Positions 12,264-19,167 of a stretch of DNA of 54,685 bases are shown here, one piece after another. A program made the position numbers and the translations under genes. Source of the stretch: Nitratireductor pacificus pht-3B (GTDB taxonomy: Bacteria; Pseudomonadota; Alphaproteobacteria; Rhizobiales; Rhizobiaceae); the NCBI RefSeq assembly GCF_000300335.1, contig NZ_AMRM01000027.1, positions 1 to 54,685 on the forward strand, given 5' to 3'. The notes below the pieces were generated by a model. It did not search any database, was not told where the DNA came from, and saw only the letters and a list, made by a program, of their open reading frames with translations. The first letter of the stretch is position 1, and every line of letters begins with the position of its first letter.

Positions 12264-12337
12264 TTGTTTCAGCGCTGCCCCCGGGCAGCGTCAGGAGCGG
12301 GATCGCCGGGCCTGCGTCCGAATGGATGCAGCGCGGT

Positions 12338-12631
12338 CTAGCGGTGTCCCTTGCGCGGCCCGGCCGGGGTCGGGCTGTGCGAAGCCTGCCGTCCCTGGCC
12401 GTGGACTGGTCCGGGGTTGGCGGCGGATTTGAGTCCCTTGTCGCCCTTCCATATAGGAGCGGCGGCGGGCGTCTGTACGGGCTTGCCGAGGGCGGTCCTG
12501 AAGGCTCCTGACAGGGTGCTGGCGGGAGCGGGTTCCTGGTGCCGCCCGGATGCTGGCGTCGTCGCCGTCGGGGTTGCGTCGTTGTGCGGGTTTTCGGACG
12601 CCGCGCGTCCGTTGCGATTGCGAGCAGTCAT
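12338..12631 (-). CDS. Hypothetical 97-residue protein, downstream ORF of leader unit 2
   Basis: An ORF of 97 codons begins MTARNRNGRAASENPHNDA. It is rich in Ala, Pro, Gly, Thr and Lys with no hydrophobic core, so it would be a disordered, basic protein. There is only a weak Shine-Dalgarno (GGA about 9 nt before the ATG). Its main support is position: the ATG is exactly 98 nt after the stop of a tiny ORF, as in the neighbouring unit. I recognise no family. It may be a real small protein, or the transcript may act as RNA. Confidence 0.4.
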   Translation of the reverse strand: MTARNRNGRAASENPHNDATPTATTPASGRHQEPAPASTLSGAFRTALGKPVQTPAAAPIWKGDKGLKSAANPGPVHGQGRQASHSPTPAGPRKGHR

Positions 12632-12729
12632 GATGCGAATCCAAAAAGTGTTCCGGAAGGATGTGTCCGGCGGATTCGCTCGCGTCCTGCTTCAGCAGGC
12701 GGTGAAGAACGGGAGAACGAAAACCGCCG

Positions 12730-12798
12730 TCAGGCCTCGTGGCGCACTGCCGTCCAGGGACGCAGGCCGACGAGGGAGGTGTGCATTGAATGATCCAT
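12730..12798 (-). CDS. Tiny ORF (22 codons) of leader unit 2
   Basis: The sequence is MDHSMHTSLVGLRPWTAVRHEA, with a strong ribosome site (GGAGG, 5 nt from the ATG) and a TATAAG box 41 nt upstream of the ATG. It lies upstream of the 97-codon ORF at 98 nt distance. It resembles unit 1's tiny ORF in its Met/His-rich start rather than in detailed sequence. A regulatory leader peptide or an independent microprotein are both possible; translation is inferred from the ribosome site. Confidence 0.5.
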   Translation of the reverse strand: MDHSMHTSLVGLRPWTAVRHEA

Positions 12799-12833
12799 TG
12801 CCGCCTCCAGCGGTGTTGGTTGATGGGGCGGCT

Positions 12834-12839
12834 CTTATA
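12834..12839 (-). promoter_or_regulatory. -10-like box TATAAG of leader unit 2
   Basis: TATAAG is followed by a GC-rich discriminator (AGCCGCCCC), as at alphaproteobacterial promoters of growth-regulated genes; compare TATAGA with CCCGCC upstream of rplY. No good TTGACA-like -35 is visible at 17 bp spacing. The same box at the same distance from the ATG occurs in unit 1. Confidence 0.45.
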
Positions 12840-12934
12840 GCCGCCGCGGGGATTTTTGGACAGTGGCGCGAACGCACCGCCCGACCATGGCAGGCCGGAC
12901 GGACGGTGCGAAACGGGGGCCGGTTGCGGCGCGA

Positions 12935-13189
12935 TCATCGAAACCATCCCGCCAGCCGGTCGCGCCATGATGGACGGACGGCCGGTTCTGCGCGCGTGAG
13001 ATCGACGTCGGGCAGCTGCCCGCGATGGGGACGCCTGCGCGCGACGCCGTCAAGCGGCAGGCGCGCGCCGAGGGTCAGGGCCCAGGCGGCGAGCTTCCGG
13101 TCGTGCAGTGTCTGCCGGGTCGGGTCGAAGGCTGGAACGTCCGGACTCGGCGGTCGGCCTTTCGGCCGCTGGGGAAAACGGTTGTGCAT
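12935..13189 (-). CDS. Hypothetical 84-residue protein, downstream ORF of leader unit 1
   Basis: An 84-codon ORF with a good Shine-Dalgarno (GAGGA, 8 nt before the ATG at 13189). It starts MHNRFPQRPKGRPPSPDVP and ends RPSWRDRLAGWFR. It is basic and Pro/Arg-rich at first, with a short amphipathic segment (HDRKLAAWALTLGARL) in the middle. I recognise no family. The start lies exactly 98 nt after the stop of the 17-codon ORF, the same geometry as unit 2, although the two downstream proteins are not clearly alike. Confidence 0.5.
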   Translation of the reverse strand: MHNRFPQRPKGRPPSPDVPAFDPTRQTLHDRKLAAWALTLGARLPLDGVARRRPHRGQLPDVDLTRAEPAVRPSWRDRLAGWFR

Positions 13190-13287
13190 CGAAACAGTCC
13201 TCGGGAAACGGAAGGCGGCTTCCGGCGGAACTCGAGACGATGCTTCAGCGTGTGTGGGAAACTGTGCTGTTCGAACCGAGACCGCCG

Positions 13288-13341
13288 CTAGGCGGAATGC
13301 CCGTTGGCGTGGAGCCAGGTCATATGCGTCATCATGTTCAT
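13288..13341 (-). CDS. Tiny ORF (17 codons) of leader unit 1
   Basis: The sequence is MNMMTHMTWLHANGHSA, preceded by AAGGAG at good spacing (6-7 nt). Four of the first six residues are Met, and three His occur in 17 positions. It lies 41 nt downstream of a TATAAG box. The codon bias toward Met and His could suit a leader peptide sensing an amino acid or metal, but no terminator/antiterminator pair is evident in the following 98 nt. It could equally be a stand-alone microprotein. Confidence 0.5.
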   Translation of the reverse strand: MNMMTHMTWLHANGHSA

Positions 13342-13376
13342 GCCTTTCTCCTTCGGTTCGCGTTGACAGTGGGGCG

Positions 13377-13382
13377 CTTATA
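13377..13382 (-). promoter_or_regulatory. -10-like box TATAAG of leader unit 1
   Basis: TATAAG followed by CGCCCCACTGTCAAC lies 41 nt (counted from its first base) before the tiny-ORF ATG, the same as in unit 2. A convincing -35 is not visible at 17 bp. Confidence 0.45.
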
Positions 13383-13498
13383 CCGGCAGTTGCGGCCAGT
13401 GGCCAGAGCGGTTCACGCTTTCCGTGCATCCCGCAGGCGAGTGTGTCCCGGCAGCCACACCCAGCCACGTCGCCAGCCATGTCGAAAGACACAGCCAG

Positions 13499-13945
13499 AT
13501 GCATATCGCCCTTTACCAGCCCGACATTCCCGGAAACACCGGCGCGATCCTGCGCCTTGCCGCGTGTCTCGGCCTCACCGTCGACATCATCGAGCCGGCC
13601 GGCTTCGACCTGTCCGACCGCAATCTGAAGCGCGCCGGCATGGACTATATCGAGCGGGCGACGCTGGTGCGTCACGCGTCCTGGGACGCGTTCGAGGCGT
13701 GGCGGCGGGGCGAGCGTCGGCGCCTGCTCCTGTTTTCGACGCGCGCCGCGACGGCCTACACGGATTTCGTCTTCAGGCCCGACGATGTTCTGCTGTTCGG
13801 TCGGGAATCGTCCGGGGTGCCGGAGGCCGTCCACGAGGCGGCCGACGCGCGGCTGCTGATCGCCATGCAGGAAGGCGCGCGCAGCCTCAATCTGGCGATG
13901 AGCGCGGCGATGGCCGCCGGCGAGGCGCTGCGGCAGACGCGATGA
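13499..13945 (+). CDS. trmL: tRNA (cytidine(34)-2'-O)-methyltransferase, TrmL
   Basis: A 148-residue single-domain SPOUT methyltransferase, the normal TrmL length. Visible motifs are PEIPGN-like PDIPGNTGAILRLAACLG (8-25), GRESSGVP (101-108) and SLNLAMSAAMAAGEALRQ near the C-terminus, which form the knotted SAM-binding site. TrmL methylates the ribose at the wobble position of tRNA-Leu species. The ATG at 13499 aligns with the usual MHIALYQPDIPGN start; the upstream in-frame extension is not family-like. The gene is followed by a convergent conserved hypothetical. Confidence 0.93.
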   Translation: MHIALYQPDIPGNTGAILRLAACLGLTVDIIEPAGFDLSDRNLKRAGMDYIERATLVRHASWDAFEAWRRGERRRLLLFSTRAATAYTDFVFRPDDVLLFGRESSGVPEAVHEAADARLLIAMQEGARSLNLAMSAAMAAGEALRQTR

Positions 13946-18603: not shown

Positions 18604-19167
18604 GTGAGCGCTACCGATTCGACCGAACATACTAGGCGTGATTTTCTCTACGTCGCGACAGGCGTTGCCGGGGCCATTGGCGCGGCCGGCGTGGCCTGGC
18701 CGTTCATCGACCAGATGCGGCCGGATGCTTCCACCCGCGCTCTTGCTTCGATCCAGGTGGATGTCTCCGGTGTCGAGCCGGGCATGTCGCTGACCGTCAA
18801 GTGGCGCGGCCGTCCGGTCTTCATCCGCAACCGCACGGATGCGGAGATCGAGGAGGCGAAGGCCGTGGCGCTCGAGGATCTCAAGGATCCGGTCGCCCGC
18901 AACGCCAACATCGCTGCCGATGCGCCGGCCACCGACCTCGACCGCTCCGCCGGCGAGGGCAAGGAGAACTGGCTGGTGATGGTCGGCGTTTGCACGCATC
19001 TCGGCTGTGTTCCGCTCGGCCAGGCCGGCGATTTCGGCGGCTGGTTCTGCCCGTGCCATGGTTCGCACTACGACACCGCCGGCCGCATCCGCAAAGGCCC
19101 GGCACCGACGAACCTCGAGGTTCCGACGTTTGAATTCGTGTCCGACACCGTCATTCAGGTCGGCTAA
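18604..19167 (+). CDS. petA: Ubiquinol-cytochrome c reductase iron-sulfur subunit (Rieske)
   Basis: A 187-residue membrane-anchored Rieske protein. The N-terminus has the twin-arginine motif [11 protein letters not shown] (10-20) followed by one hydrophobic helix, which serves as anchor. The 2Fe-2S ligands are C130-T-H-L-G-C and C149-P-C-H-G-S-H, with Cys and His of each box placed canonically. It transfers electrons from ubiquinol to cytochrome c1 on the periplasmic side. The start codon is a GTG with AGGTGAAAGGA upstream. It is the first gene of petABC, 23 bp before petB. Confidence 0.97.

Follow-up and report, generated by a model that had tools for sequence, protein, structure and literature searches.

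A conserved leader with a short upstream reading frame precedes small-protein and ABC exporter genes in Rhizobiaceae and is probably a translational attenuator

Two short units on the minus strand of Nitratireductor pacificus pht-3B contig NZ_AMRM01000027.1 (positions 1–54,685; this whole stretch of 54,685 nt is referred to below as the window) raise the question of what keeps their spacing equal when the parts that they encode are different. Each unit has a TATAAG box, a tiny upstream open reading frame (uORF) and a second small ORF, and both lie between a divergent SpoU-family methylase gene and two adjacent genes for ABC half-transporters (Table 1). A preliminary description, made from the letters of the window, had placed the two units on the minus strand, and its positions and spacings were found to be correct on recheck; the sequence blocks that it saw shared between the flanks are also present in our leader alignments. 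It had read the arrangement as a duplicated RNA-based regulatory leader or a two-peptide system, and the first of these readings has gained support from conservation across the family, from synteny with the ABC genes and from covariation of the paired segments. We propose here that each unit is probably a translational attenuator controlled by the ribosomes that translate the uORF.

Table 1. Features of the two leader units and of the neighbouring genes in the window
Feature	Position	Strand	Remarks
Unit 1 TATAAG box, possible -10 element	13377..13382	-	41 nt before uORF1 ATG
Unit 1 region 1 (CGAACCGA)	13353..13360	-	touches the uORF Shine-Dalgarno site; pairs with region 2 (swap tests, predicted fold)
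uORF1, 17 codons, MNMMTHMTWLHANGHSA	13288..13341	-	strong ribosome site
Unit 1 region 2 (CGGCGGTCTCGGTTCG)	13272..13287	-	immediately 3' of the uORF stop; can pair with region 1 or region 3 (alignment A1)
Unit 1 region 3, 5' arm of the sequestering hairpin	13222..13243	-	folding, swap tests
Unit 1 region 4, sORF1 ribosome-binding site and AUG	13186..13208	-	predicted folds, swap test
sORF1, 84 aa, type A small protein, HRGxLPDVD core	12935..13189	-	start (13189) 98 nt 3' of the uORF1 stop; alignment, codon-position bias
Unit 2 TATAAG box	12834..12839	-	41 nt before uORF2 ATG
Unit 2 region 1	12810..12821	-	predicted folds
uORF2, 22 codons, MDHSMHTSLVGLRPWTAVRHEA	12730..12798	-	strong ribosome site
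Unit 2 region 2 (CGGCGGTTTTCGTT)	12716..12729	-	folding, alignment A1
Unit 2 region 3 (GCGAATCCGCCGGA)	12666..12679	-	folding, swap test
Unit 2 region 4 (GGATTCGCATCATG), sORF2 ribosome site and AUG	12629..12642	-	predicted folds
sORF2, 97 aa, type B small protein, LSxAFxxALG core, RxGH[RK] C-terminus	12338..12631	-	start (12631) 98 nt 3' of the uORF2 stop; alignment
ABC exporter half-transporter 1, 615 aa	10306..12153	-	184 nt after sORF2; domains; its orthologues are the ABC genes behind the leader in the 69 family loci
ABC exporter half-transporter 2, 628 aa	8423..10309	-	domains
Divergent SpoU-family RNA methylase, presumably TrmL by name	13448..13945	+	Pfam

All nine same-genus genomes that were searched match the region at the DNA level. 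When both units were sought by pattern in ten genomes of the genus (these nine and the window), 18 of the 20 expected units were recovered, and in every one of the 18 the TATAAG box stands 41 nt before the uORF ATG and the small ORF starts 95–98 nt past the uORF stop, which is in agreement with the 41 and 98 nt geometry first noticed in the window; a second, overlapping start at 82–84 nt is also listed in five of the unit 2 rows. The pattern missed unit 1 of one genome (G004), in which the box and the ribosome site are degraded as judged by eye, and unit 2 of another (G005), a draft assembly with the uORF out of frame. A simple promoter scan found no full sigma-70-type site, and it is therefore the conservation of the TATAAG box that points to a -10 element.

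The distribution of the leader was then followed across the family with a covariance model, R1, built from the 27 leaders of alignment A1, which come from the genus, three other genera and a further group whose genomes measure 6 Mb (unit 1 of L033 was left out). At E values up to 0.01, R1 matches 79 of 199 Rhizobiaceae genomes, and these cover 44 of the 108 genera sampled. The loci of 69 matching genomes were examined, the remainder being the window's own, one genome whose leader had already been included (G024, leader L042) and eight weak matches, in one of which (G012) the coordinates put the leader some 180 nt ahead of the ABC gene. Each of the 69 loci has a same-strand orthologue of the same ABC gene behind the leader; 62 of them come from genomes not represented in the model and seven from genomes that are. 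Upstream, on the opposite strand, an orthologue of the SpoU methylase is found in 29 of the 29 loci for which 1.5 kb of upstream sequence was at hand (about 100 nt for the other 40). Loss of the spacing and blocks in related genomes would have spoken against the preliminary description, which had also looked for copies at other loci. Spacing and blocks recur in the matching genomes. Other copies do not appear in the genome of the window, where R1 recovers just the two units (E = 2.3e-29 and 1.5e-27) and the best match after them has an E value of 0.598.

A second survey, of 80 named ABC loci, placed a leader in 40 of them (E up to 2e-6), with a total of 45 copies and with records of Mesorhizobium, Aminobacter, Aliihoeflea, Chelativorans and Aquamicrobium among the carriers. 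Five of these loci have two leaders, namely four Nitratireductor records and a Rhizobiaceae metagenome bin (L226). The ABC loci of Phyllobacterium, Brucella and gammaproteobacteria gave no leader match at E values up to 1, and the one R1 match from outside the family, where 287 genomes drawn from the class were searched, lies inside a 627-codon open frame and was judged spurious.

Some further observations were made along the way. The leader match in two loci (L162, L167) measures 285 nt, about 100 nt beyond the usual length, and the extra stretch lies between regions 2 and 3. Twelve ABC loci (from L049 to L098) gave no strong model match, two of them (L059, L060) matching weakly; by eye, a short ORF with a ribosome site often stands shortly before the ABC gene there, and these ORFs are perhaps diverged relatives of the leader. 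Several gammaproteobacterial records (for instance of Modicisalibacter, Salinicola, Halopseudomonas and Aliidiomarina) carry the ABC gene at about 70–76 % identity with no leader match, which suggests past transfer of the gene. One record titled Bacillus subtilis SK6B4 (L237) encodes the ABC transporter at 68 % identity, which suggests that the assembly is mislabelled or contaminated.

For each of the 69 family loci we could assign a uORF and its ribosome site, in four of them with other limits after the automatic search had missed it. According to raw counts, 35 of the 69 uORFs have 18 codons, 63 stop at UGA, 57 have the stop context UGAC and 55 end in alanine. The box is present with at least five of six matches in 31 loci and lies at 40–42 nt in 27 of these. 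Peptide patterns such as MEFMMTVDIHRP are kept in other genera. Third-position bias is slight in the uORFs of the genus itself, and selection on the peptide is consequently not clear there. In several loci (L109, L112, L120, L125 and Mesorhizobium loci such as L182, L187 and L190) the usual stop has been lost and the ORF is several codons longer with the RNA block kept, which points to selection on the RNA. Such extended uORFs, seen in Mesorhizobium and a few other groups, mean that the stop codon does not have a universal role.

Four segments of the RNA can be named. Region 1 lies before the uORF, at its ribosome site, and region 2 at the uORF stop; region 3 is the 5' arm of a hairpin, and region 4 includes the start signals of the following ORF, its ribosome site and its AUG. 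In the four-segment model of the ermC type, pairing of 1 with 2 and of 3 with 4 hides the next ribosome site, and pairing of 2 with 3 opens it. Covariation was assessed by exchanging partner segments between leaders in 20000 permutations, a test that is not fully corrected for kinship. One set consisted of 37 leaders less than 72 % alike: 27 of the 69 loci were omitted for want of a clear motif or small ORF, and the 42 kept were combined with five earlier leaders and cleared of near-identical ones. Permutations as good as the real pairing numbered 17 for 1:2, with region 1 misplaced in a few rows (e.g. L110, L159), and none for 2:3 or 3:4. The controls of the same set were equalled by 9290 (1:3), 5375 (2:4) and 17897 (ribosome site with region 3) permutations; control 1:4 was unexpectedly low at 291 and stood at 18902 in a repeat with 18 named leaders. 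This second set, which was reduced from 41 leaders and partly repeats genomes of earlier sets, gave 26 permutations for 1:2, none for 2:3 and 3:4, and 11897 and 15388 for controls 1:3 and 2:4. The first swap test, at group level, had given 12 for 2:3, 2 for 3:4 and a non-significant 1352 for 1:2, and the second 0, 0 and a non-significant 1030, with region 1 poorly placed in several rows. A candidate pairing of the uORF ribosome site with the uORF's own codons was weak (496 in the 37-leader test) and is not relied on.

Covariation is thus strong for helices 2:3 and 3:4 and weaker for 1:2, and the compensatory base-paired columns that the preliminary description had looked for have statistical support in the same order. 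RNAalifold, when run unconstrained, chose six pairs, all of which belong to helix 2:3, and one of them shows a double change from G-C to U-A in two sequences. Region 3 has therefore been selected to pair with two different partners, which is the signature of a switch, and the covarying helices indicate that 2:3 competes with 1:2 and 3:4, as in an attenuator of the ermC type.

Predicted folds of 46 full leaders, many of which are close kin, are mostly in the right direction for such a switch. The free RNA is predicted to contain on average 8.0 pairs of helix 1:2 and 14.1 of helix 3:4, the latter enclosing the start codon and ribosome site of the following ORF, and both helices are also predicted for the two window leaders. 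With a ribosome over the start region the averages become 6.2 pairs for 2:3 and 10.3 for 3:4, and opening of the site is predicted to cost 7.1 kcal/mol, as against 9.5 with a ribosome at the stop (cheaper in 42 of 46 leaders). A ribosome in mid-uORF brings little shift in the full leaders (4.2 pairs of 2:3, 12.5 of 3:4), the window leaders with an early ribosome still have 16.3 and 15.6 predicted pairs of 3:4, and the equilibrium accessibility of full leaders is 0.30 when free and 0.34 with an early ribosome, the two window rows being one base off in this calculation. As the leaders would be mostly closed at equilibrium and those of the window would hardly switch, the switch is expected to need co-transcriptional folding. 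This would be consistent with the folds predicted for nascent RNA that lacks region 4, in which helix 2:3 has 13.2 pairs with a mid-uORF ribosome (13.3 and 12.9 in the window leaders) and 4.1 with a ribosome at the stop (1.5 and 0.0). Nascent RNA free of ribosomes is predicted to form 11.4 pairs of 2:3 versus 1.8 of 1:2 (2:3 in the window leaders, 0.3 and 13.1); it already favours 2:3, which makes the off state in the absence of uORF translation uncertain.

From the conservation, the synteny and the pairing covariation computed here, we infer ribosome stalling, an inducer, coupling to the exporter, a role for the two small-protein families and a class of substrate, which may fit together as follows. 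In the resting RNA, helices 1:2 and 3:4 would both be formed, the second of them making the small ORF's ribosome site and AUG inaccessible. After complete translation of the uORF, the ribosome would sit at the stop and cover region 2; helix 3:4 could still form, and the small ORF would remain silent. If, by contrast, the ribosome stalled within the uORF, it would remove region 1 and leave region 2 free, and helix 2:3 could form during transcription; region 4 would then be open, and the small ORF would be translated and with it the downstream ABC exporter operon. Induction would most likely come from a slowing of translation, as caused for instance by drugs that act on the ribosome and that the exporter itself may remove. 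In Nitratireductor two such units would operate, with a different small protein behind each. The presence of the same leader in the same place in many relatives suggests that translation of the uORF probably decides when the pump is made. If this is true, the status of the ribosome controls an ABC exporter pair in bacteria that are mostly associated with soil and plants, and sharp predictions follow for compensatory mutants and for induction by drugs.

A broader version of this mechanism, to which we give a minor but real chance, is that the leader senses slow translation in general and that the decision falls at the uORF stop. Termination at Ala-UGA-C, the widespread end of the uORF, would place the ribosome over region 2 and keep the operon off, and it would follow that any stall before the stop turns the operon on. 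The two small proteins would in that case be new partners of the exporter, and type B, whose R-x-G-H-[RK] end hardly varies, may act as a further arrest or regulatory peptide that is coupled to the ABC gene.

A transcription attenuator would likewise consist of a uORF and of helices that exclude each other; translation of the uORF would then choose between a terminator and an antiterminator, in a manner similar to bmrB-bmrCD, or would control the access of Rho. One terminator-like site is indeed present in unit 2 (12670-12653). However, there are two such sites in 1.4 kb, where 1.6 are expected, and none in unit 1, and helix 3:4 includes the ribosome site and the AUG, which fits better with control of translation. 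We therefore regard transcription attenuation as rather unlikely to be the main mechanism; secondary Rho termination at the leader could nevertheless accompany the translational attenuator that we favour.

Two conserved small-protein families, to which no names have been given, are attached to the leader. Type A, represented by sORF1, has the core HRGxLPDVD (alignment A2). Type B, represented by sORF2, has the core LSxAFxxALG and ends in R-x-G-H-[RK] in 10 of 10 aligned members (A3; in the window at 12341-12355, just before the stop); exceptions are one protein that ends in GHI (G007) and two without the motif (L135, L203). This end may serve as an arrest peptide, a contact with a partner or a degradation signal. 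Third codon positions vary most in both types, as expected for coding genes. Neither sORF1 nor sORF2 matches Pfam or NCBIfam at or near the cut-off, and there was no match of value for the type A set in Pfam, for the type B set in NCBIfam or for type A among solved structures (best E 0.88). Homology between sORF1 and sORF2 was not supported by profile comparison (probability 0.4), and an AlphaFold model of sORF1 was set aside for its low confidence (mean pLDDT 67.7, pTM 0.27). The earlier remark that the peptides and downstream proteins of the two units barely match needs qualification in that the uORF peptides are patterned in other genera and each small protein is conserved in its own right.

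Both adjacent ABC genes encode transmembrane and ATPase domains (Pfam), and none of the best 25 NCBIfam models listed per protein reached its cut-off. Judged by its sequence, the pair is a candidate multidrug exporter. Between the last small ORF and the start of the ABC gene there are often only 2–57 nt, though 184 nt in the window, and translational coupling is plausible. This position directly before exporter genes, occupied by two conserved families, could also mean that the small ORFs are themselves the products that matter, as substrates or partners of the ABC proteins, and that the leaders merely regulate them. We consider such a two-peptide or secreted-peptide system improbable as the explanation of the locus: the members scanned have no Pfam or NCBIfam match, and six loci from several genera have no small ORF at all, the uORF stop lying 153–163 nt before the ABC gene. 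In addition, the proposal concerns the small proteins only and is compatible with an attenuator. In one genus (locus L126), small ORFs of both types, A and B, follow the same leader and no second leader is matched, so that the layout in Nitratireductor may have arisen by placement of a second copy before type B or, alternatively, by loss elsewhere.

That RNA blocks are conserved outside the coding parts would also be expected of a small-molecule riboswitch or the target of a small RNA, in which the uORF is incidental. This is very improbable in view of a uORF with a ribosome site in each of the 69 leaders, about half of them of one and the same length, and of the simple long pairing that RNAalifold returned as the only consensus helix. 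Moreover, Rfam gave no match at the gathering score in the whole window, and at a relaxed threshold the sole match in the stretch 12300-13500 was a snoRNA model from nematodes, on the opposite strand (E 0.13); a tRNA scan found none. Short blocks can recur in a GC-rich region, but a chance likeness of two unrelated leaders has next to no probability given their recurrence across the family, the same downstream gene in every locus examined and the covariation.

The translational attenuator that we propose can be compared with several known systems. The preliminary description could not match the units to a known class; this remains correct in so far as no Rfam family matches, but the architecture works like that of the uORF attenuators of ermC, toiL-topAI and bmrB-bmrCD. 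The leader itself was not found described among the matches listed in a search of open-access literature, which left subscription papers largely outside. With the erm attenuators, the scheme of which is mentioned in PMC10314930, it shares a short leader ORF and the logic of 1:2 and 3:4 versus 2:3. It differs in the placing of regions 1 and 2, at the ribosome site of the uORF itself and at the uORF stop respectively, in its target, a small ORF with ABC exporters in Alphaproteobacteria, and in that the response to drugs is here a prediction. In the toiL-topAI system of Escherichia coli (PMC12121999), a structure hides the topAI ribosome site and drugs that stall ribosomes in the uORF relieve the hiding, tetracycline and retapamulin stalling at the start codon. 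The two systems share a Gram-negative uORF and a next ribosome site hidden by structure, whereas in toiL the pairing with the topAI site extends along the uORF and in our leader the pairing segments flank it. For bmrB-bmrCD of Bacillus subtilis, PMC4191407 reports a leader ORF that is translated, followed by stem-loops in alternative forms, ahead of a multidrug ABC transporter pair that is induced by protein-synthesis antibiotics. The likeness lies in a leader ORF and alternative helices before an ABC transporter pair; bmrB uses an intrinsic terminator, whereas none is seen above chance here and the hairpin covers a ribosome site. A leader peptide has also been tied to a multidrug resistance operon in Sinorhizobium meliloti (peTrpL/rnTrpL; PMC7298713, PMC10117765); it is reported to derive from the trp attenuator and to act post-transcriptionally on another operon, and it belongs to a different locus. 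The small-protein study in Sinorhizobium mentions small ORFs in ABC-transporter operons in general (PMC10117765). The leader would belong to a known kind, that of the uORF-controlled attenuators, and what seems new is this particular leader together with the two unnamed small-protein families attached to it.
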